From a virus: a stretch of 21,926 nt of DNA. The notes below the pieces were generated by a model. That model did no database searches. It saw only the letters and a list, made by a program, of their open reading frames with translations, and was not told the origin of the DNA. The position numbers were made by a program, and so were the translations under genes. Positions 363-18,998 of the stretch are shown here, in pieces. Location: the IMG/VR virus record IMGVR_UViG_3300021170_000076, positions 1 to 21,926 of that record; one strand, 5' to 3'. The stretch's first letter is position 1. Each line of letters starts with the position of its first letter.

Positions 363-1376
363 TCAGATGTTCAAGAATTGCAGGCCGTCGATTTTGGCGT
401 GCGCCTTGCATTTCACGTTGACGAGCTCGAGCAGCGACAGCACCGCCGAGATGTAGCCGAATTGGTTGTTCGGCAAAGTCGACTCGAACCCGGTGAACGC
501 GAATGCGGCGCGCTCGTGCAGGAACAGCGACAGATAGTTGGTGTTGATGATGTAGAGCACGCCCTCGGGGCAGTACGGGTCCGCGTAGAACGGAATGCCG
601 GCGATGTCGAGCGCCTGGAACGACGAATGACCGACGAAATTCGCGCTCGACAGGCTTTCGGCCGGGTTGATGTTGTAGCGCTCTTGCGGCGTGAAATCCT
701 GTGCGAGCAAGGTCCACGTGCCGAACCCCATGATCCCGATCGACGGCATTTCGCCCGTGGTCTTGCTGACCTGGGCGATGTACTGAAGCATCAGGTTTCG
801 CGTCGGGACGGTGGCGCCGCCGTTGTGAACGTAAACGGATTTCCAAAACTGATTGGTTTGACGGGGGATGCCGCCGTAGTTGGCGCTGAAGGTGCCGTCG
901 TCGATCGCCGAGGGTAGACCAATGAGCTGCTGGGTGTTGGCGACGTTGTTGTAAAGCGTAGTGGCGAAGGTGTCGATCGTAACATTTGTCGCGTCATTCA
1001 TCCTCGCGTCGATCAGCGGAACCACGGAATAGTCGAGCTGCACGAGCCCCTCGAAACCGAGGAACGGAATCGGCGTGCAGTAGGCCTTCAGGTTGAATTC
1101 GGCGTTCTGAATCCCGGGCTGCACGCCGGGCTGATTGAACGATCCCGAATAGTCGACCCATTGACCCGACACCATCGGGGCGCCCTGCAACGGCGCGGTG
1201 ATCGGCGACAGGCCACCTGAGGCGACTTGCGCGTGCGACAGCAGGGCCGCGATGAGGGGGGCGGATTTCCAGAGCTGCACGTACACGCGCGGCATGAAGG
1301 CGCGGCGCACGACGGCACTTAGCTCGTTCGCGATGGCGCCCTGTGCCGGGACGATGCCACTACCGAATTGCGGCAA
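363..1376 (-). CDS. Major capsid protein
   Basis: This 337-residue protein has the size and position of a phage major capsid protein: it directly follows a coiled-coil scaffold-like gene and lies downstream of the terminase and portal. It has no signal peptide. The sequence is rich in Asn, Phe and Tyr and has long hydrophobic beta-like segments (GIMGFGTWTLLAQDF, the YCPEGVLYIINTNYLSLFLHE region), typical of HK97-fold shell proteins that lack strong motifs. The start is a TTG (TTGCCGCAATTC) six bases after AGGAG; no ATG fits better. It is predicted to self-assemble into the icosahedral shell around the scaffold. The assignment rests on synteny and composition rather than on a diagnostic motif. 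Confidence 0.82.
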   Translation of the reverse strand: MPQFGSGIVPAQGAIANELSAVVRRAFMPRVYVQLWKSAPLIAALLSHAQVASGGLSPITAPLQGAPMVSGQWVDYSGSFNQPGVQPGIQNAEFNLKAYCTPIPFLGFEGLVQLDYSVVPLIDARMNDATNVTIDTFATTLYNNVANTQQLIGLPSAIDDGTFSANYGGIPRQTNQFWKSVYVHNGGATVPTRNLMLQYIAQVSKTTGEMPSIGIMGFGTWTLLAQDFTPQERYNINPAESLSSANFVGHSSFQALDIAGIPFYADPYCPEGVLYIINTNYLSLFLHERAAFAFTGFESTLPNNQFGYISAVLSLLELVNVKCKAHAKIDGLQFLNI

Positions 1377-1398: not shown

Positions 1399-1968
1399 CT
1401 ATGCACGAATCCCGGAACGCTTTTTGAATTCCGAGATCACTGTGTAAGCAGCGTTTTGCGCAGCAGTGGTGGGGTTCTTGGCGAAGTCGGCAAACGGAAT
1501 CGGCTTTCCGTCGCGGCCGTTCACGGTGGGGAATTCCCAGGTGGCGCCCATCCGTTGCTCATCTGGCGGGCCGTCCATCGGGTTCACGGGCGGTTTCTCG
1601 TGCGCGTACAGCACGGCCGCCTGGTTGTAGTCGAGCGTCGAGCCGTGACGGTCGATGATCTGCTTGATTTCGTCCGCCTGTTCCTTGGTGTACTTGCCGG
1701 CGGTGATCAGGTCCTCGCGCTGCTTGTCGAGCGCGCGCTGAAACTCGCGCGCCTGGGAGAGTTGCTCTTTCTGGGCGAGCTCGTTTCGCAACGCCTGCAA
1801 TTGGTCCTGATGCTCGACATCCGTGAAGCTCGCGGCGCGGTCCGGGAATTTTGCCTTGACGAGCTTGGCGACGTACGGCCGCGTCTTTGGATCGTGCGAA
1901 AGCTCGAAAAACATCGCCGACAGGTCCGCCATTTCCTGGGGGCTCAACTGTCGTTTCGGTGCGGGCAT
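1399..1968 (-). CDS. Capsid scaffold-like protein
   Basis: A 189-residue, highly charged, mostly helical protein. Residues 50-110 (LQALRNELAQKEQLSQAREF onward) look like a coiled coil rich in Gln, Glu, Lys and Ala. There are no membrane segments and no catalytic motifs. It lies 22 bases upstream of the major capsid gene and downstream of the portal, the classic place of a scaffolding protein, which lines the inside of the procapsid and leaves before DNA packaging. The start ATG (MPAPKRQLSPQEMADL) has only a weak purine-rich leader (GAAAGTGAAAGCG). A large hairpin lies just upstream at 1991-2028. The function is inferred from position and coiled-coil character. Confidence 0.72.
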   Translation of the reverse strand: MPAPKRQLSPQEMADLSAMFFELSHDPKTRPYVAKLVKAKFPDRAASFTDVEHQDQLQALRNELAQKEQLSQAREFQRALDKQREDLITAGKYTKEQADEIKQIIDRHGSTLDYNQAAVLYAHEKPPVNPMDGPPDEQRMGATWEFPTVNGRDGKPIPFADFAKNPTTAAQNAAYTVISEFKKRSGIRA

Positions 1969-2252: not shown

Positions 2253-2425
2253 CAGTGCGCCCTTTCCTTTTCGTAGTCTCCGTTCAGCAATCCGAACGGA
2301 ACAGTCAGCTTGTGGGGCTCGCCGCGTAGGACAAATTCAAGATCGCGGACGAGTTGGCCGTTGTGATCGTACACGCGCTCCGGTGCGCTTACGACACTGC
2401 CCTCATCTGGGATCAAGTGAACCAT
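2252..2425 (-). CDS. Small hypothetical phage protein (57 aa)
   Basis: This 57-codon gene starts MVHLIPDEGSVVSAPERVYD and ends with KERAH. It is acidic with alternating hydrophobic residues and could form a small beta-rich domain. The ATG overlaps the stop of the upstream Pro/Gly-rich gene by one base (TGATG), and its own stop overlaps the ATG of the next gene in the same way. This tight chain is the main reason to accept such a short gene. I recognise no family. It is probably a head-module accessory. Confidence 0.7.
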   Translation of the reverse strand: MVHLIPDEGSVVSAPERVYDHNGQLVRDLEFVLRGEPHKLTVPFGLLNGDYEKERAH

Positions 2426-2868
2426 CACATTCCCCCTTCGCCACCCGGAGGCGGCGGCATGCCACCGGAGGGCGGCAACGGGGCGGATGCTATACCAGGG
2501 GGTGGGGCGCCCGCAAGTGGCCCCCCCGGATTTTGCGTCGCCGCCATCTGGCGCAGCGCCGCGGGAGCAAGATCACCCCCTTTCGATTCGCCGAACAGCG
2601 GGTTGAGCGCCGACAACGCGCGCATGAGCCCCTGGAATTCCTTGCTGCCGGGCTCGTAGGCGAGCATCGACATCTGCATCGTGCGCATGCACGCCTTGAT
2701 GTTCGCGAGCGCGGCGGCCTGATTGCCAGCGCCGCCGCCGGGGCTCACCATCGGCGACGCCCCTGGACCGCCCGGACCGCCGGCCGGCGATTTCGGAAGC
2801 ATGCCGCCACCCGGCGGGGCCATTGGGCCGCCGCCAGCGCCGGGCATAGGTCGCGGGGGCAAAGGCAT
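2425..2868 (-). CDS. Pro/Gly/Met-rich hypothetical head-module protein
   Basis: The 147-residue protein has three parts: a Pro/Gly/Met-rich N-terminus (residues 1-47), a central helical block of about 60 residues (AAALANIKACMRTMQMSML through LFGESKGG), and a second Pro/Gly-rich tail ending GGEGGM. Low-complexity PG arms around a helical core suggest an extended or disordered protein, possibly a virion-associated or assembly factor next to the portal. It is the first gene after the terminator at 2886-2912. The start ATG has only a weak Shine-Dalgarno. No enzymatic motif is visible and no family is recognised. Confidence 0.68.
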   Translation of the reverse strand: MPLPPRPMPGAGGGPMAPPGGGMLPKSPAGGPGGPGASPMVSPGGGAGNQAAALANIKACMRTMQMSMLAYEPGSKEFQGLMRALSALNPLFGESKGGDLAPAALRQMAATQNPGGPLAGAPPPGIASAPLPPSGGMPPPPGGEGGM

Positions 2869-2885
2869 TGCGGGAACCTATGCCA

Positions 2886-2912
2886 AGAAAAAGCCCCGGT
2901 CAAACCGGGGCC
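2886..2912 (-). terminator. Rho-independent terminator downstream of the portal
   Basis: On the minus strand GCCCCGGT (2911-2904) pairs with ACCGGGGC (2900-2893) across a three-base loop, TTG, and is followed at once by TTTTTC. This is an eight-base GC-rich stem plus U-tract. It would end or attenuate transcripts coming from the terminase/portal genes before the Pro/Gly-rich and capsid genes. Confidence 0.85.
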
Positions 2913-2937
2913 AAGTCAGGAAGAGATGGAAAAGCTC

Positions 2938-2969
2938 ACGTATCGGGATGTCGATGTATCTGGATGTCG
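2938..2969. repeat. Tandem 16-bp imperfect direct repeat
   Basis: ACGTATCGGGATGTCG (2938-2953) is directly followed by ATGTATCTGGATGTCG (2954-2969), with 14 of 16 positions identical. It lies in the non-coding gap between the portal gene and the terminator. The spacing of about 1.5 helical turns could suit a protein-binding site, but it may also be a neutral duplication. Confidence 0.65.
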
Positions 2970-2977
2970 GGTGCGGC

Positions 2978-3022
2978 TTACCGCCTGCGACCGCGACGGT
3001 GACGACGTCCGCGTCTCGCCAT
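2978..3022 (-). CDS. Arginine-rich micro-ORF (14 aa)
   Basis: ATGGCGAGACGC to TAA encodes MARRGRRHRRGRRR: nine Arg and one His in 14 residues. It has a perfect AGGAGG five bases before the ATG (AATAGGAGGCAGACATG), one of the best ribosome-binding sites in the window. It lies 57 bases after the portal stop and upstream of the tandem repeat and the terminator. Such a polycation could bind DNA or RNA (protamine-like condensation, packaging or antitermination), but no function can be assigned from sequence. It may also be a short leader ORF. Confidence reflects the strong start signal against the very short length. Confidence 0.5.
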   Translation of the reverse strand: MARRGRRHRRGRRR

Positions 3023-3079
3023 GTCTGCCTCCTATTTTGCCCTTCCGCGGGATTGCGGCGGTCTGAGTGCGGGGCGAGG

Positions 3080-4816
3080 CTACCGCTTCTTTCGGCCGCC
3101 CGCAAGCTGTTGCGCAAGCAACTCAGGGTGCTGCTGCATCATCTTCGCCTTCTGCCGCTGTTCCTGGCGTAGCGAATGAATGAGGTTGTCGCGGTTCGGT
3201 GGATTGAGCATGCGAATCAGCATCTCGTTATTGATCGCGCCGGCCTTCTTCAGCAGCGCCGCGGTTTCCTTCGCTTCGTCGCCGAACAGCGGCGAGTGCG
3301 AGTGCCCCTCAATCCGCATGTGGATGTCGGACGCGATCTGTACGGGCAGGAACGGTTCGGCCTTTCCCTTTTCGTCGGGCTCCGGAATGATCGGCTGATC
3401 GTCATTTTTCATCTTCAGCTTGAGCCCGAGGTCACCGATGCGCACGAGGCTCTTTTCCAGCTTCAGCGCGGTCCGCTTGATGCGTCCGCCGCCAGTCTTG
3501 CGCAGTTCCTGAGCATGTTGCCGAGAACGCACCCCCTGTTCGCCCCGTCCGGACAGCACCTCTGTAAGTCCTGAAGCTTCGCCGAAAAGGTTGTTGATCT
3601 GCTGGAAATCCGCGAATAAATCAGGAGGCATCTTGGGGTGCAGTTCCTCAACCTTGGCCTGCGGCATTTGGTCGAAGAGGTAGCTGTCGGCTCCACCGAA
3701 GGCCTCCATTTTTTCGTCCGTCAGCCCGAGGAAACCGGATCCCACTTTTGGCGGGTAGGCCTGGCGCTCGAGGATGTCGGCGATCTGGTCGAGCCGCTCG
3801 TTCATCCAGTCCTGTAGCGGCATGAGCCCGTCGATGTGCGCGATCCCCCAGAAATAGTTGTATTTCGAATACGGCGTGATCGCTGTGAACGGGTGATCCT
3901 TCGGCAGGAAGTAATTCGATCGGGTCTTGTAGAATTCCTCGGTCAGGTTTTTGCCCTTGAACGTGCCGGCGCGCAGCATCGCGTCGACGGTCTTGCGCGA
4001 ATCGCTGATCAGGATGTCCGGATCGCACATGTGAAAGATGCGGTAGTCGCTGCATTCGTCGTCCCACGCCCACAGTTCGTCGAAGCGCACCATCGGCGTG
4101 TCGACCTTGGGCTGATAGGTCGCGAGCGGCGTGAAGTCCGGGTTGACCTGGCCGATCATGTTGCCCGACAGGTTTGATCCGCCGGTGGCGCTGATGATCA
4201 TTCGATTAAGTAACTCGGGGAACGGCGAGACAACCGGTCTATTTTCAACGGAAATCCTTGGAAGGTCAGCCCCGCGTCCTGCACGAATGAGTCGCTGAGC
4301 AGCCTCGCTCCATTCGAGAAAATACGTGTGACAGAAAGCCGACTGCGAATTGAGGTCGGTAACGTCCTCACGAAAGACTCCAAAATTCTGCGGCGGGACG
4401 AGTTCGGCAAATTGCGCCTCCCGGGTGTCGTTCCACCCCTGTTTCATGATCATGGTGTCGTATACGAGAGCCCACGGAATGGCTTCCGCCACGAGGTCGC
4501 TTAGCCCGTCGTCCTGGAAGTCGTCGTTCCACTCGTCTTGGAGAGCTATGGCCTGCTTGACCACCGCGTCGTCGGCGTTTCGGTCCGCAGCAATATTGTA
4601 AAATGCGTGATCGGGTGCGTACAGGAAGGCGGCCACCAAGTCGATGTGGCTTTCCAGTCTGTTGTAACGAATCGGGTCACTAGAGTCGGTCCCAAATAGA
4701 AAATACCGCTCGCGACGCTGATAAAGCTGTGCTCGATCATCTCGACTAGCGGTGCACGTATCAATGATCCATTTGACACGTTTCTCGATCCCTTCGTCGT
4801 CGGTCGGGAAGATCAT
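3080..4816 (-). CDS. Portal protein
   Basis: The 578-residue product from MIFPTDDEGIEKRVKWIIDT matches the size and position of phage portal proteins: it lies downstream of the terminase and upstream of scaffold and capsid. It is soluble and mixed alpha/beta, with a central WDDE/DYRIFHMCDP region, a long helical segment near LEKSLVRIGDLGLKLKMK, and a Gln/Lys-rich C-terminus ending AGGRKKR. The portal dodecamer forms the vertex channel for DNA packaging and tail attachment. I chose this ATG because GAGGA lies about ten bases upstream; an in-frame start 28 codons earlier would overlap the previous gene and adds only Arg-rich sequence. The preceding gene's stop overlaps this start by a few bases. 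Confidence 0.85.
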   Translation of the reverse strand: MIFPTDDEGIEKRVKWIIDTCTASRDDRAQLYQRRERYFLFGTDSSDPIRYNRLESHIDLVAAFLYAPDHAFYNIAADRNADDAVVKQAIALQDEWNDDFQDDGLSDLVAEAIPWALVYDTMIMKQGWNDTREAQFAELVPPQNFGVFREDVTDLNSQSAFCHTYFLEWSEAAQRLIRAGRGADLPRISVENRPVVSPFPELLNRMIISATGGSNLSGNMIGQVNPDFTPLATYQPKVDTPMVRFDELWAWDDECSDYRIFHMCDPDILISDSRKTVDAMLRAGTFKGKNLTEEFYKTRSNYFLPKDHPFTAITPYSKYNYFWGIAHIDGLMPLQDWMNERLDQIADILERQAYPPKVGSGFLGLTDEKMEAFGGADSYLFDQMPQAKVEELHPKMPPDLFADFQQINNLFGEASGLTEVLSGRGEQGVRSRQHAQELRKTGGGRIKRTALKLEKSLVRIGDLGLKLKMKNDDQPIIPEPDEKGKAEPFLPVQIASDIHMRIEGHSHSPLFGDEAKETAALLKKAGAINNEMLIRMLNPPNRDNLIHSLRQEQRQKAKMMQQHPELLAQQLAGGRKKR

Positions 4817-4995
4817 GCGGTCCGATCCTCGCCGCCGTCTAGCGGTACTACCTTGAACCCAGCAAGCCAGAGGTTGGCTAGAAAGAAATCGACGGACCAA
4901 TCAGGGTATCCCATGCGGATCATCGCCTCACGCGCCCCATTGCCAGGATTCGGCGGCTCGCGGTGTTCGTCAAGCTGAATTACATCCGCGCTCAC
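4813..4995 (-). CDS. Small hypothetical protein upstream of the portal (60 aa)
   Basis: The 60-residue protein starts at a GTG (VSADVIQLDEHREPPNPG) that shares GTGA with the stop of the zinc-ribbon gene before it. A GGGAGG lies five bases upstream. Its stop overlaps the portal ATG by a few bases. The sequence is Trp- and Phe-containing (MGYPDWSVDFFLANLWLAG) and probably folds as a small helical domain. It is translationally coupled on both sides, which supports it as a real gene. The family is not recognised; it probably belongs to the head or packaging module. Confidence 0.7.
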   Translation of the reverse strand: MSADVIQLDEHREPPNPGNGAREAMIRMGYPDWSVDFFLANLWLAGFKVVPLDGGEDRTA

Positions 4996-5450
4996 CCCGC
5001 CCTCCCCGTGTGCCGCCCCGCGATGTCGGTCATCACCTGTGGCCCCGGCACCGATCGGGACGCCGGCAGGCTGCGGTTGGTCGCGACCTTGCCGTGGAGG
5101 TCGACGCGAGCCTCCGATTCTTGGCAGGTGGCGCCCAAGCTCGACACCGGGGCCGAAAATCCGGGCGCAAAGTGCTTGACCGGCATGTCGGCGCGGCGTT
5201 GTTCGTACTTCGGCATAGCCCGATTGAGCCTCGAATGCGAACCGCTGTTGAGATTCGTCAGCCCGTAGTCGGCCGCGAGCGATTTCAGCGTCGCGTCGGC
5301 GTTCGGGGCCACTTTGGCGACGTGCCCGCCGCCCGGGACCCACGCGACCTTCACGCAACCGCAGAAGGTACACGCAGGATTCCCGCGCTCAAAGCTGTGA
5401 AAAATCCTCGCGCACGAGCGATTCAAACATTTCCAGTCTCTCGACAGCAT
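4992..5450 (-). CDS. Zinc-ribbon protein (FmdB-like N-terminus)
   Basis: The 152-residue product carries an N-terminal cysteine cluster, KCLNRSC at residues 7-13 and CTFCGC at 27-32, which fits a small zinc ribbon of the FmdB/rubredoxin-like kind. The rest is hydrophilic and Ala/Ser/Pro-rich, without catalytic motifs. The start at 5450 lies inside the previous gene, whose stop is at 5389, so 62 bases are read in two frames. The zinc-ribbon residues are encoded partly in this overlap, which argues that the start is genuine. The stop is fused to the next gene as GTGA. It may be a nucleic-acid or protein adaptor in the packaging operon; the role is unknown. Confidence 0.72.
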   Translation of the reverse strand: MLSRDWKCLNRSCARIFHSFERGNPACTFCGCVKVAWVPGGGHVAKVAPNADATLKSLAADYGLTNLNSGSHSRLNRAMPKYEQRRADMPVKHFAPGFSAPVSSLGATCQESEARVDLHGKVATNRSLPASRSVPGPQVMTDIAGRHTGRAG

Positions 5451-6599: not shown

Positions 6600-8459
6600 T
6601 TACCTCCTGTCTGACGGTAGGGTTATATTGCTCTTTTTCAAATAGTTTAAGATTAGGTGATCAACTGGAGCTTCGCCGCCAGCGGTTTCTATAGCATTTG
6701 CCCGCTCTCGTGTCATGTTTCTGGCCTTCAAAACCGGTTGAAGCCATCTTCTCCACGCTTCATGCGCTAACGCGGCGGCCATTACTCTATCATCTTTATG
6801 GGCTCCTTCCGCACTAACGTGGCCTTCGTCGCTCACCATGCGGCGCATCTCGTCGAGCATCGGCACCGATCGCACGATCATGCGCCGGAGCTCGAAGGAG
6901 TCCTTGAGTTTGGCCATCAACTCGCGTTTGCGCTGGTCGCTCATGATGAAGTGGTACGCGAAGTCGCCACCGGACAGCGTGTCGGCCTTCGAATAGTAGA
7001 AATGCCGCATGTTGCGGAACACGTTGCGAAGGTGCGCGTCCTCATCCGTCACTTTCATCTCGCGGCATTTTTGTTGCAAGCTCATGAGCTCCTGCCAAAC
7101 AGCGGTACCAGCGCCGTTGATCTCGATTATCACCCGGCAGTCCACCGGACCAAAGAAGCCGGCAAGATGGGCCAAAACCCATGCACATTGGTACGTCGAG
7201 ACTTGGGGAGTACAAAATTCCGCAACTTGGACAATGCATTCTGCGAAGGCCCGGAACACCGTGATCACGCTCCGGTCAGCCTTCTCCGAGCTTCCCCACG
7301 CAGGATCGCAGCCAATGACGTAGTAGCCAAACGCCGATGCGTGCTCCCAGATACGCAATTCCGCTCTCGTGTCCTTGAAGCCTTGCACCTGGGTATCTTC
7401 CCATCGGGTCGTAAGCTTGTAGCGGTATCCCTGGAAAGGTATACGCCGTGATTCGCGTATCGCCGCCGTCAGCGTTTCGGCCGTAAAGTATTTCGATCCC
7501 GTCGCCTGAAACGCGTCTTCGTCCGTCCATGGGAACTCCTGGTCCATCAACTGCTGGTCGTCGTCGAATTCCTCGCGGCGCTTCCACCGATACCACGCGA
7601 TTTGCTGAAGGCTGATCGTGAAGCCGTACAGCTCCTTGACGGCGCGCACGCGCTTGCGCTCGAGCGGCGTCAGCGACGAGTCCGGCATGAACTGGTAGTA
7701 GAACGGATGGCTGGTTGCGAACGCATACCGCTCGTCCCGCCACCATCCGACGAAGATCGCCTTTACGACCGCCGACTCTTTCGCCGCTTCGTAGGTGTCC
7801 GAGAAGTGGTTGAAGCCGTTCGCGGTCGACTCGTAGATTTGGAGGCGGTGGGCGTACATGGAGGACGTAGACGATTTAAAAGCTCGGATATCGTCCTCGT
7901 TACCATAGAACGCCACTTCGGTCGCGTGAACGTAATTAGAGGCGCCGGACCTTCCCAAGCCTCCCTTTCTATTCTCCGAAGTACCCGCAATAAGGTAGCG
8001 AAATCTCGACCCGTTGGCGAAGGAAAGTATATTGCGATTGTGTCTGATCTTGCGCGGCTTGAACTTGAGGCTCTGCCCGTCGATGGTGACCTTCGCGGGG
8101 ATTTCGTCATAGAACACCTCGATTGCGGCGCGCCAGTCGTCGCGGGCCTCTTCCTTGTGGAGGATGAAGGTTCCCAAAAGTCCCTTGTATTCGAAGGCCC
8201 AGAACATATCGAGTGCTATAAAATACGTGGTGGCGCCGATCTGCCGCGGTTTGAGGACCACGAACGTCGTGATCCCGCGCTCAAGTCCCTCTATCATTTC
8301 GTCCATGATATAGCGCTGGCCGCCGAGCAACCGGAACGGGACGAGACCCATATCTTTCGATTGCACCTTGAGGCGGGAACAGAACATCAGAAACCGCTCC
8401 TGCGGAAACGGTGCCGCCCCCGAAAAACTCGGCAACTTGAATTCGAGATTGTCCGTCAT
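6600..8459 (-). CDS. terL: Terminase large subunit
   Basis: The 619-residue protein is the DNA-packaging motor. The N-terminal ATPase has a deviant Walker A, KPRQIGATT (70-78), and a Walker B-like YVHATEVAFYG (176-186), where Glu181 would be the catalytic acid. The C-terminal RNase H-like nuclease shows GCDPAWG with Asp385, IIEINGAG with Glu446, and KDDRVMAAALA with Asp556-557, the three acidic sites expected of terminase nucleases. The start at MTDNLEFK overlaps the stop of the upstream zincin-like gene as TGATG, with GGGCGGG as ribosome site; a longer in-frame N-terminus would be Arg-rich overlap sequence. The Walker A lacks the usual Lys before Thr-Thr, and Lys70 may take its place. Confidence 0.95.
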   Translation of the reverse strand: MTDNLEFKLPSFSGAAPFPQERFLMFCSRLKVQSKDMGLVPFRLLGGQRYIMDEMIEGLERGITTFVVLKPRQIGATTYFIALDMFWAFEYKGLLGTFILHKEEARDDWRAAIEVFYDEIPAKVTIDGQSLKFKPRKIRHNRNILSFANGSRFRYLIAGTSENRKGGLGRSGASNYVHATEVAFYGNEDDIRAFKSSTSSMYAHRLQIYESTANGFNHFSDTYEAAKESAVVKAIFVGWWRDERYAFATSHPFYYQFMPDSSLTPLERKRVRAVKELYGFTISLQQIAWYRWKRREEFDDDQQLMDQEFPWTDEDAFQATGSKYFTAETLTAAIRESRRIPFQGYRYKLTTRWEDTQVQGFKDTRAELRIWEHASAFGYYVIGCDPAWGSSEKADRSVITVFRAFAECIVQVAEFCTPQVSTYQCAWVLAHLAGFFGPVDCRVIIEINGAGTAVWQELMSLQQKCREMKVTDEDAHLRNVFRNMRHFYYSKADTLSGGDFAYHFIMSDQRKRELMAKLKDSFELRRMIVRSVPMLDEMRRMVSDEGHVSAEGAHKDDRVMAAALAHEAWRRWLQPVLKARNMTRERANAIETAGGEAPVDHLILNYLKKSNITLPSDRR

Positions 8460-8743
8460 CACCGCCCGCCCGGATGATCCGCGGGCCAGCCCGAGCAATG
8501 TCCTAGCTCGTGAACGCGCACGTCCTCGCGGTCGATCCGAACCACGTCGCACCGCTTCAGGAACATCACCGAACACCCGAGGAACTGCTTGCCGGGCGGC
8601 GGCGCCGCGAACCGGTGTGCCACGCTGCGCTCAAGGCAGATGCGCGCGACATCGGGCGCCGGCAGGATCGTCTCGGTCACCACGCGCGTCGGCGCCGCCA
8701 GATAGATCGCTGGCGGCTGGATGACCGGGAGGTCAAGAGGCAC
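8459..8743 (-). CDS. Small zincin-like putative metalloprotease (HELGH)
   Basis: The 94-residue protein ends with VHELGHCSGWPADH: His78-Glu79-x-x-His82 with a Gly at the metzincin-like position and a further His at residue 90. HExxH is the zinc-binding catalytic motif of metallopeptidases, and similar short proteins with HE-x-x-HCxGW occur in other phage genomes near terminase genes (recalled, not searched). It starts with GTG within 11 bases of the preceding stop, and its stop TGA overlaps the terL ATG. Substrate and role are unknown; processing of a virion or host protein is one inference. There is no signal peptide, so it should act in the cytoplasm. Confidence 0.72.
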   Translation of the reverse strand: MPLDLPVIQPPAIYLAAPTRVVTETILPAPDVARICLERSVAHRFAAPPPGKQFLGCSVMFLKRCDVVRIDREDVRVHELGHCSGWPADHPGGR

Positions 8744-9881: not shown

Positions 9882-10095
9882 TCAAGCGGACAATTCCGGA
9901 ATGGCTGCGCGAAACACATCCATCACCTGCACCATTGTCTCGCGTACGTGCTGCGTCTTGCCCGATTGAAGGTCGATCGATGCCCCAGCCCCCCGGCGGG
10001 GAGTCCGCATTCGGCGCGGCGCGAACCCGCTCGCATTGGTCCGAATTGATCGAAACCCATTTAGCTGTCGGCGTCGTCAGTGTCACCCAGGGCAT
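9882..10095 (-). pseudogene. Small conserved phage protein, one-base frameshift at a G6 run
   Basis: The gene starts MPWVTLTTPTAKWVSINSDQ with GGGAGG upstream. After ADSPP the frame degenerates, but the other frame continues as GAGASIDLQSGKTQHVRE, then TMVQVMDVFRAAIPELSA and a TGA at 9882. Dropping one base from the run of six G (C6 at 9989-9994 on the plus strand) joins the halves into a 70-residue protein of the kind with a VxIN-x-DQ head and an S/IxLxSGK...VREt tail, similar to small phage proteins I recall. Causes may be a sequencing indel in a homopolymer, a real pseudogene, or programmed +1 frameshifting. The 5' end overlaps the methyltransferase gene by 13 bases. Confidence 0.75.
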
Positions 10096-11096
10096 GAAAT
10101 GCCTCCCGAATTTCGAAACACGCGTCCAATATGCCGACTGAGCGCCAGCGGTATCTTGGCGATCATGGCGGAGGCGAACGCCCGCGACCTCGAACCCTTC
10201 GCGTGAAGGCGCCCCGGCGAAATGGTGCCTCGCGCTTTTTCCTCCGCATAGGTGCCAAACCAGTCGCCAGCTACCTTGCTCCCATCGCTGCGCATCATTG
10301 CCGTGGCTTCTTTGCGGCGATCATCGAGAGCCTTGTCCCACCATGCCGCGCCGCTGCCCTGCTGCTTGCGCCAGTCCGGATTCCTCCCCTTGCCGCTCGT
10401 GGTGTTATGGGCGATGGCGAACCACGAGCCGCCATGGTTTTTGATGGCGCGGTCTTGCAATTGGCGACCGGGGCCGCGTTCTTTCCAGCCTGCATCTCCA
10501 GCCTTGACGCCCTCGCGCAATTGCCGATCAGCGTGTGTGTTGAAGCCTTCGCCCTTGTAGCCGGGCTCGCCGTACTTGCTCCAATTCAGTCCCGGCACCT
10601 TAGCGGCCTTGAGCGTCATCGGCATCAGCGCCGGCACGTCGCCCCAAAGGTGAAAACTGCCGAACGCCCACCTACTGCGACCGACCCACGGCTGCGCACC
10701 CCTCACGTTCTCGACCACCATCGGGATGTGCCGGCCGGCGGCAAGGCTTGCCTCTGCCTGAATACGGAAACACGCATCGAATAGCTCGTTGAGTTCCGCG
10801 AGCATCTGCCCGGTTTCATCCGCCCTGATCTCCGCAGCCTTCGCCTTGGCGGCCTTCCATGGCATCGCCATCCAGGAATAGCGCTGGCACGGCGGCGAGG
10901 CGACGATCAGCGTGGCGCTCCGGAATTGCGAGCCGTGCAGCGTACGCACGTCCTGGATGACGAGCTGCGCTGGGTAGCGGTGCTCGCCGTAGACGTGGCG
11001 CTCGATGTCGAAGCCCACGCAATCCCACCCATCGGCAAGCAGGCCGTCTGACCAGCCGCCGAGGCCGCAGAAGAGGTCGATGGCCAGCGGTTTCAC
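10083..11096 (-). CDS. C5-cytosine DNA methyltransferase
   Basis: The 337-residue protein shows the C5-MTase motifs in order: motif I IDLFCGLGGWSDG (residues 6-18) for SAM, motif IV ASPPCQRYSW with catalytic Cys70, motif VI VVENVRG with Glu129-Asn130, a target-recognition region around 165-290, and a C-terminal motif IX/X-like FASAMIAKIPLALSRHIG. It transfers a methyl group to cytosine C5, probably to protect phage DNA from host restriction. The GTG at 11096 lies eight bases after GGGAGG; an earlier GTG at 11105 would overlap that site. No partner endonuclease lies nearby. A parS-like palindrome covers the start codon. Confidence 0.93.
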   Translation of the reverse strand: MKPLAIDLFCGLGGWSDGLLADGWDCVGFDIERHVYGEHRYPAQLVIQDVRTLHGSQFRSATLIVASPPCQRYSWMAMPWKAAKAKAAEIRADETGQMLAELNELFDACFRIQAEASLAAGRHIPMVVENVRGAQPWVGRSRWAFGSFHLWGDVPALMPMTLKAAKVPGLNWSKYGEPGYKGEGFNTHADRQLREGVKAGDAGWKERGPGRQLQDRAIKNHGGSWFAIAHNTTSGKGRNPDWRKQQGSGAAWWDKALDDRRKEATAMMRSDGSKVAGDWFGTYAEEKARGTISPGRLHAKGSRSRAFASAMIAKIPLALSRHIGRVFRNSGGISCPG

Positions 11097-11104
11097 GTGA
11101 AACA
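11089..11104. other. parS-like 16-bp site at a methyltransferase start
   Basis: On the plus strand the bases are GGTTTCACGTGAAACA; the consensus ParB-binding site parS of bacterial chromosomes is TGTTTCACGTGAAACA. Fifteen of 16 positions agree, and the perfect palindrome TTTCACGTGAAA is intact. It overlaps the start codon of the C5-methyltransferase and part of its leader. It may recruit host ParB, or arise from the leader sequence plus the start codons by chance. Confidence 0.6.
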
Positions 11105-11117
11105 CCTCCCGAATTCA
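11100..11117. repeat. 18-bp perfect repeat, leader copy 1 (C5-MTase)
   Basis: AAACACCTCCCGAATTCA occurs here and at 11571-11588; on the minus strand both copies give a leader with GAATTCGGGAGGTGTTT in front of a methyltransferase gene. A related copy with GCCTCCCGAATTTC precedes the frameshifted gene near 10097. It carries the Shine-Dalgarno GGGAGG. Confidence 0.8.
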
Positions 11118-11570
11118 TTCAGCCGGCGAATTTACCCGATGCAACATAATCCAGTAATTGAGGTGCCGTTGCACTGATTGTGTCGTGGCCGTCCCAAATA
11201 ACGGCGACCACCACGGCAGCAGTAAAGGCAGCACGGATTTGAGCACAAGCCCCTTCGTCGACCACTTCAATGCCATCACGGCATCAGGAATCGCAACACG
11301 GTGCGCCTCCCTTGCGCCGTCCGTGATTAATTTTCGTATCTCCGCGGCAGTGAAATGACCGTAACTCATCGCCATCCTCGAATTGCGGGATGCGTTGTAG
11401 TGCGGCGGATCAAACACTACGAGCCCAAACACCTGACCAAAAGGTAGCATACCACTGTCCGCCACCACATCAGGGCCCACCCCCTCCCTCAGATCAACGT
11501 AGACCGCATCTGGATGGCGCCTATCGAGCCAAATTGCCCGGTTACCCGCCGTGAGGTCCAAAATCCGCAT
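11115..11570 (-). CDS. Small class I SAM-dependent methyltransferase
   Basis: The 151-residue protein begins MRILDLTAGNRAIW, a motif I-like SAM-binding loop. It then has VYVDLREG (motif II acidic end) and VFDPPHYN at about residues 52-59, a DPPY/DPPH-type catalytic motif that puts it with amino-methyltransferases (N6-adenine or N4-cytosine). It is much shorter than typical Dam/M.EcoRI enzymes and is a compact phage form lacking a target-recognition domain. ATG at 11570 follows GGGAGGTGTTT; a GTG two codons upstream is inside that site. It lies directly upstream of the C5-methyltransferase, pointing to joint DNA modification. Protein or small-molecule methylation is not excluded. Confidence 0.82.
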   Translation of the reverse strand: MRILDLTAGNRAIWLDRRHPDAVYVDLREGVGPDVVADSGMLPFGQVFGLVVFDPPHYNASRNSRMAMSYGHFTAAEIRKLITDGAREAHRVAIPDAVMALKWSTKGLVLKSVLPLLLPWWSPLFGTATTQSVQRHLNYWIMLHRVNSPAE

Positions 11571-11588
11571 AAACACCTCCCGAATTCA
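11571..11588. repeat. 18-bp perfect repeat, leader copy 2 (small MTase)
   Basis: This is identical to 11100-11117 over 18 bases, and provides the GGGAGG leader of the small methyltransferase. It probably reflects duplication of the leader when genes were gained or arranged in tandem. Confidence 0.8.
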
Positions 11589-13367: not shown

Positions 13368-13958
13368 ATGACCGGCCTCGGCAAACAAGCCAAAATCCTG
13401 TCCGAGCCGCAGATTTCGGCCGCCCTGTCGGCGGTGGCGTCTCGCCGCTACCCATTGCGTGACGCCGTGATGGTGCTGCTTTCGGTCCGGGCGGGCCTGC
13501 GGGCGAAGGAAATCGCTTTGGTCAACTGGGGCATGGTGACGGACGTGCAGGGCGAGGTCGGGACCGCGATCGCGCTGCTGAACGAGGCCTCGAAGGGCCG
13601 GCGCGGCGGTCGGGTCATTCCGATGTCGGCCGGGTTGCGCACCGCCCTGCTCGAGCTGCGGGCGACGCGAAACGACCCGGAACCGAGCGACCGGATCATC
13701 CATTCCGAGCGCGACGCCGGGATGTCGCCCGGGGCCGTGCAGGTGTGGTTCCATCGGCTGTACGCCGAATTGGGGTTCGTCGGCGCGTCGTCGCATAGCG
13801 GTCGGCGGACGTTCGTGACGCGGTGCGCGAAGCGGATCGTGGAGGCGGGGGGATCCCTGCGCGACGTGCAGGAGCTCGCCGGGCACGCGTCGCTGTCGAC
13901 CACGCAGCGGTACATCCAGGGGGATTCTGACGCAAAACGGAGGGTGGTGGAGCTATGA
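13368..13958 (+). CDS. Tyrosine recombinase, catalytic domain only
   Basis: The 196-residue protein carries the full set of tyrosine-recombinase active-site residues: Arg45 in GLRAKEIA, Lys76 in NEASKGRRGGRVIP, His143-x-x-Arg146 in SSHSGRRTF, His173 in LAGHASLSTT, and nucleophile Tyr182 in QRYIQ. It breaks and rejoins DNA via a 3'-phosphotyrosine. It lacks the N-terminal arm- and core-binding domains of normal integrases, so it is about half length but intact as a catalytic domain. It starts three bases after the previous stop, and its TGA overlaps the next ATG. It may resolve dimers, invert or integrate DNA; no att site is obvious nearby. Confidence 0.88.
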   Translation: MTGLGKQAKILSEPQISAALSAVASRRYPLRDAVMVLLSVRAGLRAKEIALVNWGMVTDVQGEVGTAIALLNEASKGRRGGRVIPMSAGLRTALLELRATRNDPEPSDRIIHSERDAGMSPGAVQVWFHRLYAELGFVGASSHSGRRTFVTRCAKRIVEAGGSLRDVQELAGHASLSTTQRYIQGDSDAKRRVVEL

Positions 13959-17718: not shown

Positions 17719-17943
17719 ATGGCGCACTGTCCGAAATGTGGCCGGCACATCAGGCGACGCGAATGCCGCCCGCTCAAATGCCCACGATGCGGGCCGATGC
17801 ACGATCCGACGTGGCGAAAAAAGGACCGAAAATGTCAAGCCTGCTATCCGAGCCCGGCTTTTACGAGATCGATGCTGACGACTACCACGGCGACCCGGCC
17901 CCCGAGGCTTCGCTGTCGAATTCAGTCGGGCGGATCATCCTAG
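17719..17943 (+). CDS. Possible small zinc-ribbon protein (74 aa)
   Basis: MAHCPKCGRHIRRRECRPLK continues with CPRCG and a third pair (KCQAC), giving a zinc-ribbon-like CxxC...CxxC arrangement with a basic linker. The leader has only AGG close to the ATG. The frame overlaps the exonuclease gene start by 112 bases, and its C-terminus after about residue 40 looks like a shadow of that gene, so the coding part may be only the first 40 codons. An in-frame ATG at 17635 would extend it 28 residues upstream across the second hairpin. It may be a decayed or very small real gene. Confidence 0.42.
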   Translation: MAHCPKCGRHIRRRECRPLKCPRCGPMHDPTWRKKDRKCQACYPSPAFTRSMLTTTTATRPPRLRCRIQSGGSS

Positions 17944-18998
17944 AGCAATGCCCGCGCGCGGCGTGGTGGGCGCACCCGAGGCTCAACCCGCAATTCACCG
18001 AGGACACCGACACCAAATTCGACCGCGGCACGGTCGCGCACGCCATTCTGCTCGGCAAGGGCAAAGCATTCCGCCTGATCGACGCGCCCGATTACAAATC
18101 CAAAGCGGCGCAGATGCAGCGCGATGCCTACCGCGAGGCCGGATTCACGCCGGTGCTGGTCGGCCACCACGCTACCGCCGAGGCGATGGCGATCGAGGCG
18201 CGGCGCCAGTTGAAGGACATCGACGGCGGCGAATTCGCGTTCAACCCGGAATTCGGTGATATCGAATTGTGCGGGCTGTCGCGCGATCCCGTGGGTTGCT
18301 GGGCGCGCACGCTGATCGATTTCTACGGCGCCAGCGTGCCGGACGGCGTGACCTGCTGGGATTACAAGACCACGAGCGGCACCGCAAACCCGCTCATGGT
18401 CGGATCGAAAATGGACGACCTGTGGGCGTTCCAGGCGGCGTTTCAGGAGCGCGTCATCACCGTGCTCAAACCCGCGCTCGCCGGCCGCATCCGGTTCCGC
18501 TTCCTCGTGCAGGAGAACGAGGAACCGTATCTGTGCTCGGTGGTCGAGCCCACGAGCGCCGCGCGCACCATCGCGCACAAGCAGGTGGCCGCCGCCATGG
18601 CGATCTGGCACGCCTGCATGCAGCGGGGCACGTGGCCGGGCTACTCGCGCAACAGCGTCGCGATCGGCGGCGCGGCGTGGAAGGAGGCCGCGTGGCTCTC
18701 GCGCGAGTTGGGCGACGAGCTCGTGCAGCTCGCGGCGCACGATCCGTTTTTGACGACGGCGTTTCAAATAGGGGGCGGCACCCGTGGAGGGTTTGGCGGA
18801 GGTAACGTTACCGCCGACGCTGGGACGATAGCTGGTCATGCGGCGAATGGCCCAACGGAACCGGGGCAGCCGGTGCATGCGGGTCAGAACCGCACCGCTC
18901 CACCAAAGACCCGCAAGCCGCGCGGCCCGTACAAGCCGCGCAAGCCGAAGGCGCCGCCGGAACTGCCGCCAGGCACGACGATGATGGATGCTGGGTGA
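17832..18998 (+). CDS. RecE/PDDEXK-like exonuclease
   Basis: The 388-residue protein (MSSLLSEPGFYEIDADDYHG) shows a PDDEXK nuclease core: FDRGTVAHAILLG (64-75), LIDF with Asp163, and CWDYKTTSG (176-184) with Asp177 and Lys179, the D-ExK-like pair. This layout matches phage exonuclease VIII/YqaJ-like proteins that resect double-strand ends for recombination. After residue 310 comes a Gly-rich linker and a Lys/Pro/Arg-rich tail (KTRKPRGPYKPRKPKAPP). The start has AAAGGA seven bases upstream. With the J-domain protein and Sak4-like ATPase it forms a single-strand annealing module. Confidence 0.82.
   Translation: MSSLLSEPGFYEIDADDYHGDPAPEASLSNSVGRIILEQCPRAAWWAHPRLNPQFTEDTDTKFDRGTVAHAILLGKGKAFRLIDAPDYKSKAAQMQRDAYREAGFTPVLVGHHATAEAMAIEARRQLKDIDGGEFAFNPEFGDIELCGLSRDPVGCWARTLIDFYGASVPDGVTCWDYKTTSGTANPLMVGSKMDDLWAFQAAFQERVITVLKPALAGRIRFRFLVQENEEPYLCSVVEPTSAARTIAHKQVAAAMAIWHACMQRGTWPGYSRNSVAIGGAAWKEAAWLSRELGDELVQLAAHDPFLTTAFQIGGGTRGGFGGGNVTADAGTIAGHAANGPTEPGQPVHAGQNRTAPPKTRKPRGPYKPRKPKAPPELPPGTTMMDAG

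Follow-up and report, generated by a model that had tools for sequence, protein, structure and literature searches.

Very short Arg-rich peptides, such as the adenovirus core peptide mu and the sperm protamines, condense dsDNA, and tailed dsDNA phages are usually thought to package naked DNA together with metal ions and polyamines. Lambda-type N proteins carry further NusA- and polymerase-binding regions beside their Arg-rich RNA-binding motif, and morons are sporadic in occurrence. In microviruses, the J/VP8 protein binds DNA within the capsid and is required for packaging (PMC11281519). At the RNA level, the leader pseudoknot of T4 gene 32 is possibly the only viral pseudoknot used for translational autoregulation (PMC3014915).

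In this work, a 14-residue micro-ORF and its relatives were compared with these systems. The micro-ORF lies in a virus record of IMG/VR (IMGVR_UViG_3300021170_000076, positions 1 to 21,926), and the whole 21,926-nt stretch is referred to as the window. Like phiX174 J and gokushovirus VP8, it encodes a tiny Arg/Lys-rich protein in the capsid gene region. However, J/VP8 serves ssDNA T=1 capsids, whereas the phages with the micro-ORF are tailed dsDNA phages with terminase, portal and tail genes. VP8 of SpV4 has 38 aa and ends in a Phe that is buried in the capsid protein, while the micro-ORF products are 10-32 aa, are basic to the last residue, are built of triads, have no aromatic tail and are encoded in up to three tandem copies. 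By this comparison, the product would work most like microvirus J/VP8, yet stands outside the Microviridae J/VP8 family. Mu is cut from a precursor, whereas the whole micro-ORF gene corresponds to the mature peptide; no homology is claimed, and the hosts and viruses are unrelated. The Arg-rich motif of lambda-type N is similar in length to the micro-ORF product, which consists of the basic segment alone (14 residues in the window).

Structure of the micro-ORF locus in the window

The genes and signals around the micro-ORF, with coordinates in the window, were as follows.

363..1376, minus strand: major capsid protein gene (PHROG 9953, E 5e-27)
1399..1968, minus strand: 189-aa gene directly ahead of the capsid gene, scaffold-like by position alone
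2425..2868, minus strand: gene after the micro-ORF, about 147 aa, Gly/Pro-rich
2892..2912, minus strand: intrinsic terminator, 9-bp stem followed by TTTT
2978..3022, minus strand: micro-ORF MARRGRRHRRGRRR, ATG start and TAA stop, translation read directly
3023..3067, minus strand: conserved leader CTCAGACCGCCGCAATCCCGCGGAAGGGCAAAATAGGAGGCAGAC, identical in the window, L002, L003, L016 and L211
3028..3033, minus strand: Shine-Dalgarno (SD) sequence AGGAGG, then the 5-nt spacer CAGAC and the ATG at 3022
3045..3058, minus strand: possible 4-bp hairpin CCGC-AAUCCC-GCGG in the leader, found by inspection
3080..4900, minus strand: portal protein gene, 606 aa (weak match to PHROG 1216, E 4e-4; homologues annotated as portal in MW202753 and MW202825)
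6600..8576, minus strand: terminase large subunit gene (PHROG 2, E 2e-11)

The first-pass annotation had described a 14-residue ORF behind AGGAGG-N5-ATG in the interval from the portal gene to a terminator, and all of these details were correct on re-reading. Its count of ten Arg or His residues was confirmed by translation (9 Arg and 1 His), and the peptide can be parsed in triads as M-ARR-GRR-HRR-GRR-R. The portal gene is the upstream neighbour, with its stop 57 nt from the start side of the micro-ORF, and the terminator is located 65 nt downstream. When one fixed criterion, namely an SD, a length of 10-32 aa and 7 or more basic residues among the last 13, was applied to both strands of the window, this was the single ORF recovered. 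No convincing promoter was found upstream of it in the window. The overlapping 79-aa TTG ORF at 2878-3117 was rejected as a true gene: it had no match in PHROGs, and it was also ruled out by L016, in which the DNA upstream of the leader is unrelated yet the leader and the micro-ORF are kept.

In L003 and L009, too, the micro-ORF is followed by a gene similar to that at 2425..2868, and the capsid protein of the window shares 53-54% identity with those of MW202753 and MW202825. The PDB search using the portal profile gave no match. Elsewhere in the window, homologues of integrase (13368-13958) and exonuclease VIII (17736-18998) were identified, which suggests a temperate phage that encodes its own recombination functions. 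Two adjoining frames (10083-11105 and 11115-11576) both match DNA methyltransferase families and represent two genes or one split gene.

Conservation and protein-level selection of the micro-ORF family

Relatives were sought with the portal protein as query in a viral contig collection, a genome collection and named phages, and a deeper viral scan kept 80 of at least 579 confirmed relatives. Seventy-six distinct loci were found by the portal only and had sufficient DNA behind it. The first-pass annotation had made its reading depend on conservation in syntenic phages, and 73 of these 76 loci had, immediately behind the portal, one to three polybasic micro-ORFs of 10-32 aa with a net charge of +6 to +12. 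In L042 the micro-ORF was more distant, at +770, and L028 and L097 seemingly had none (2/76). The SD, which is part of the counting criterion, was present at the homologous position in all loci counted. In an enlarged set, the micro-ORF was detected in 143 of 148 loci, a count that is biased because some of the contigs were selected by ORF pattern. High-GC contigs encoded, for example, MARKRRRHRRGRR, MNIKAEIAKREGAAHGRRGRRHKRRGRR, MLMWTKLLANAQERRRRHRRGRR and MKRKHKRGRRRGRRK, and low-GC contigs encoded MYKKMKRGRKTRR and MARKARKGRKARK, at times with a third peptide such as MARKSKKGRKSCK.

Arg codons are common at high GC, from which an ORF of this kind could arise by chance. Over the enlarged 148-locus set, however, just 12 of 2960 dinucleotide-shuffled post-portal regions (0.4%) were positive and the antisense strand held no such ORF; the background rate of ORFs meeting the criterion in related phages was 0.014 per kb of strand. 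The peptide was also conserved with Lys codons in AT-rich relatives. The probability of a chance ORF is therefore negligible, and the window micro-ORF is near certain to be a real gene.

The portals of loci bearing the micro-ORF diverge down to 31-33% identity, and presence in 73/76 loci across such divergent portals indicated that the micro-ORF is a core gene. The circular GenBank genomes MW202753 and MW202825, whose portals are 32-33% identical to that of the window, carry two micro-ORFs each and none is annotated, in line with the earlier remark that annotation overlooks such genes. In MW202753 (L208), two antisense hypothetical proteins (4740-4877 and 4874-5038) are annotated over the sense micro-ORFs, and these gene calls are probably spurious.

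Searching for MARxxRKGRK accompanied by an SD yielded at least 120 stretches, and almost all of these came from contigs that either contain this portal gene or are cut just before it; the interior match in L138 belonged to an unrelated long ORF and was discarded. The pattern of the high-GC type gave 12 stretches, of which one (L217) was out of frame and rejected. In all syntenic loci the micro-ORF was within the head module. In a distant branch (L213, L215 and L216; tail genes 24-27% identical), a micro-ORF cluster was located after a baseplate-like gene instead of the portal, still amid virion genes, and thus the gene is tied to the virion module and not to the portal itself. No clear family member was seen in a TM7 phage whose capsid protein is distantly related (25%). 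Further polybasic ORFs of 25-26 aa, MARRRRMVMVPASRKARRARKGRRY, MARRGRKMVRRHGRKTFPKPRRSRR and their relatives, occur in tandem and unannotated immediately ahead of the genes for the scaffold-like and capsid proteins in L009-L011 (L009:8422-8578, L010:8555-8635, L011:8620-8782), and a relative of MARRRRMVMVPASRKARRARKGRRY was found again in L216. Every family member seen was metagenomic; these tailed phages belong to a large group that is uncultivated and of which hundreds of members have been sequenced.

Protein-level selection on the peptides was shown from sequence comparison. The 14-residue product is identical in the window, L002 and L211, whose micro-ORFs differ at synonymous sites only. 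The pN/pS ratio was 0.26 for the MARxxRKGRK type (59 distinct DNA sequences) and 0.38 for the MYKK/MRK type (42 distinct DNA sequences). In 89 rows of the MAR type, M1, A2, R3, R6, K7, R9, K10 and K13 were invariant, including the identity of Arg versus Lys. The non-basic residues of the peptides were spaced with a period of 3 (0.629 compared with 0.311 ± 0.021 in shuffles, lag 6 also raised). Such counts are inflated by kinship among the sequences. Based on this spacing, the shared design is Met plus about four x-basic-basic triads, M(x-basic-basic)4, and it was seen again across highly divergent portals. Between clades Arg and Lys exchange, and synonymous codons are free to vary.

The peptides consist of 60-80% Arg, Lys and His and are basic through the C-terminus. 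Among 1354 residues of the basic cores, 6 were acidic and 9 were Val, Ile, Leu, Phe or Trp, so neither a hydrophobic core nor an amphipathic helix is formed, and a membrane-active cationic peptide was ruled out since hydrophobic residues are almost lacking. A peptide of this composition is probably unable to fold as an enzyme and would bind nucleic acid or acidic surfaces. For the longest members (23-28 aa; those below 20 aa are not scannable), Pfam gave no match at E<=1 and PHROGs gave a single insignificant match (E 0.13). Literature searches for small phage proteins rich in Arg, for microproteins and for basic peptides, in a collection with few subscription papers, gave no prior description of the family.

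Expression signals and leader RNAs

In the low-GC clade, CGT and CGC made up 92% of the Arg codons in the micro-ORFs, compared with 79% in the capsid genes and 60% in the portal genes of the same contigs; GGT and GGC accounted for 95%, 90% and 77% of the Gly codons, respectively. TAA was the stop codon in 196 of 200 micro-ORFs. These features are a hallmark of genes expressed at very high levels, although RNA-level constraint could contribute to them. The high-GC clade, window included, showed little such contrast and no excess Arg codon bias.

A terminator within 150 nt downstream of the micro-ORF was found in 26 of 33 high-GC loci (1.4 expected) and in 6 of 97 low-GC loci. An Arg-codon-rich ORF followed by a terminator, as in the window and those 26 loci, would fit a leader peptide at whose Arg codons ribosomes stall and so govern the terminator and the genes behind it. 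Such attenuation is highly improbable, because Lys freely substitutes for Arg between clades and the identity of the sensed codon is thus not conserved, the Arg codons of the low-GC clade are optimal rather than rare, most low-GC loci have no terminator there, and selection acts on the protein sequence while synonymous changes are free. Control of the downstream terminator, one of the roles raised in the first-pass annotation, was likewise disfavoured, as the low-GC peptides are conserved regardless of a terminator.

A sigma70-like promoter was detected upstream in 48% of high-GC loci compared with 3% in shuffles. Together with the terminators and the integrase in the window, this resembles a moron, that is, a promoter-ORF-terminator cassette that has been inserted between late genes and is active in the lysogen. 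The sporadic presence of morons, however, does not agree with a gene held at 73 of 76 loci, and this origin is very unlikely. The promoter in about half of high-GC loci, the strong ribosome-binding site and the very small, very basic product would also suit an effector directed at the host, with ribosomes, RNA polymerase or host nucleic acid as its target and shutdown or redirection of the host as its effect. It is improbable that the peptide acts in this way, given that the gene is always amid late virion genes and never in the early region, and that it is near-universal whereas host-specific effectors are usually patchy.

The five contigs sharing the leader of about 45 nt were 79-81% identical in portal DNA and 70-78% in downstream DNA, and the invariance of the leader against this flanking identity indicated strong constraint. 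For the same reason, no covariation can be obtained for the candidate hairpin at 3045-3058. The folding energy of the window leader was no better than that of shuffles (z +0.99; mean of the high-GC clade -0.67), and the pseudoknot described below is therefore claimed for low-GC leaders only. In two other high-GC leaders, those of L031 and L032, the hairpins were strong (z -4.0 and -4.8, respectively) and had inner stems of unlike sequence, possibly another structured leader type.

In the low-GC clade, an H-type pseudoknot was identified ahead of the last micro-ORF, with stem 1 (e.g. AGGG/CCCU), a 3-nt linker and stem 2 (e.g. GGCUGACU/AGUUGGCC) interleaved, and its 3' end 17-25 nt before the start codon. 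Of 39 portal-derived loci that have this last micro-ORF, 36 contained the pseudoknot, and the same loose search elsewhere gave about 1 per 7 kb. Covariation was analyzed with L014:4813-4880 and 63 other low-GC leaders (alignment A2; 64 distinct sequences, aligned without structure). In these 64 leaders 93.8% of cells paired, compared with 83.5% after shuffling and 37-64% with partners slid, a percentage that favours the pseudoknot because the structure was proposed from the same sequences; the covariation, less dependent on this, comprised 76 double-change cells compared with 20.8 ± 3.3 in shuffled and 2-8 in slid controls. The exchanges in stem 2 were C-G to A-U and C-G to U-A, and the stem 1 pairs were A-U, G-C, C-G and U-A. 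When six loci were scanned against Rfam at E<=5, the element matched no family, and the covarying pseudoknot is a candidate new RNA family. Rfam matches over the window region and its relatives were all far under the curated thresholds and were taken as chance; a type II hammerhead ribozyme match in L095 (904-952, minus strand) was also sub-threshold (28.7 bits, curated cut-off 37).

The low-GC micro-ORF resembles T4 gene 32 in having an H-type pseudoknot upstream of the ribosome-binding site and, as gp32 binds nucleic acid, in its presumed ligand; the sequences and genes differ, and autoregulation in the micro-ORF phages is hypothetical. With T4 gp32 autoregulation as precedent (PMC3014915), the peptide might bind a structured phage RNA, such as its own pseudoknot or leader, and set its own or head-operon expression, or antiterminate, as was also raised in the first-pass annotation. 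This possibility deserves some weight although it is rather unlikely. The strongly covarying pseudoknot, the nearly immutable leader of the window and the fixed Arg and Lys identities, which suit specific RNA recognition, agree with it. However, the pseudoknot ends well before the start codon and masking of the SD is only putative, the peptide is nonetheless conserved in high-GC clades that have other leaders and no such pseudoknot, and the capsid-like codon bias suggests bulk demand rather than that of a regulator. For a lambda-N-type antiterminator, 10-14 residues are too short to hold NusA- or polymerase-binding parts.

Proposed role in virion assembly

The reading that we favour, with middling confidence, is a bulk role of the peptide with packaged DNA, in which it would neutralize or guide the DNA during packaging. 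Packaging with DNA, or its condensation, had been among the roles raised in the first-pass annotation. The bulk role is preferred because of the head-module location, the near-universal presence, the tandem copies and the capsid-like codon bias. The micro-ORF is a gene of the virion-assembly module, with a product of Met and about four x-basic-basic triads that in some members has a short N-terminal extension. Under this model, the strong ribosome-binding site behind the conserved leader would yield the microprotein late in infection and at capsid-like amounts; it would bind nucleic acid by charge over its full length and neutralize or guide phage DNA at the portal or in the head. It might then be retained in the virion or consumed in assembly, as a protamine-like or J-like helper freed as a separate peptide.

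The sigma70-like promoter that roughly half of the high-GC loci seem to have counts against a packaging role, as a late structural gene would need none of its own, and so do the apparent lack of the gene in L028 and L097 and the absence of excess Arg codon bias in the high-GC clade. The strict Arg-versus-Lys identity exceeds what a plain charge neutralizer needs and could reflect a specific target. Because of these fixed identities and the constrained leaders, the RNA-directed role keeps a share of the probability, and both roles could be true together. An unlikely further extension is that these phages have an undescribed class of virion-bound 13-residue polybasic peptides that condense or guide tailed-phage dsDNA, with a peptide-sensing leader pseudoknot matching synthesis to DNA as a minimal analogue of the T4 gp32 loop.

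A gene of 13-14 codons, under the standard size limit of gene finders, is one of the better conserved elements in the head module. Both micro-ORF annotation and translational control in phages could be tested cleanly on the micro-ORF family and its leader pseudoknot. If a dedicated head polycation is true, it would alter the picture of naked-DNA packaging for this phage group.
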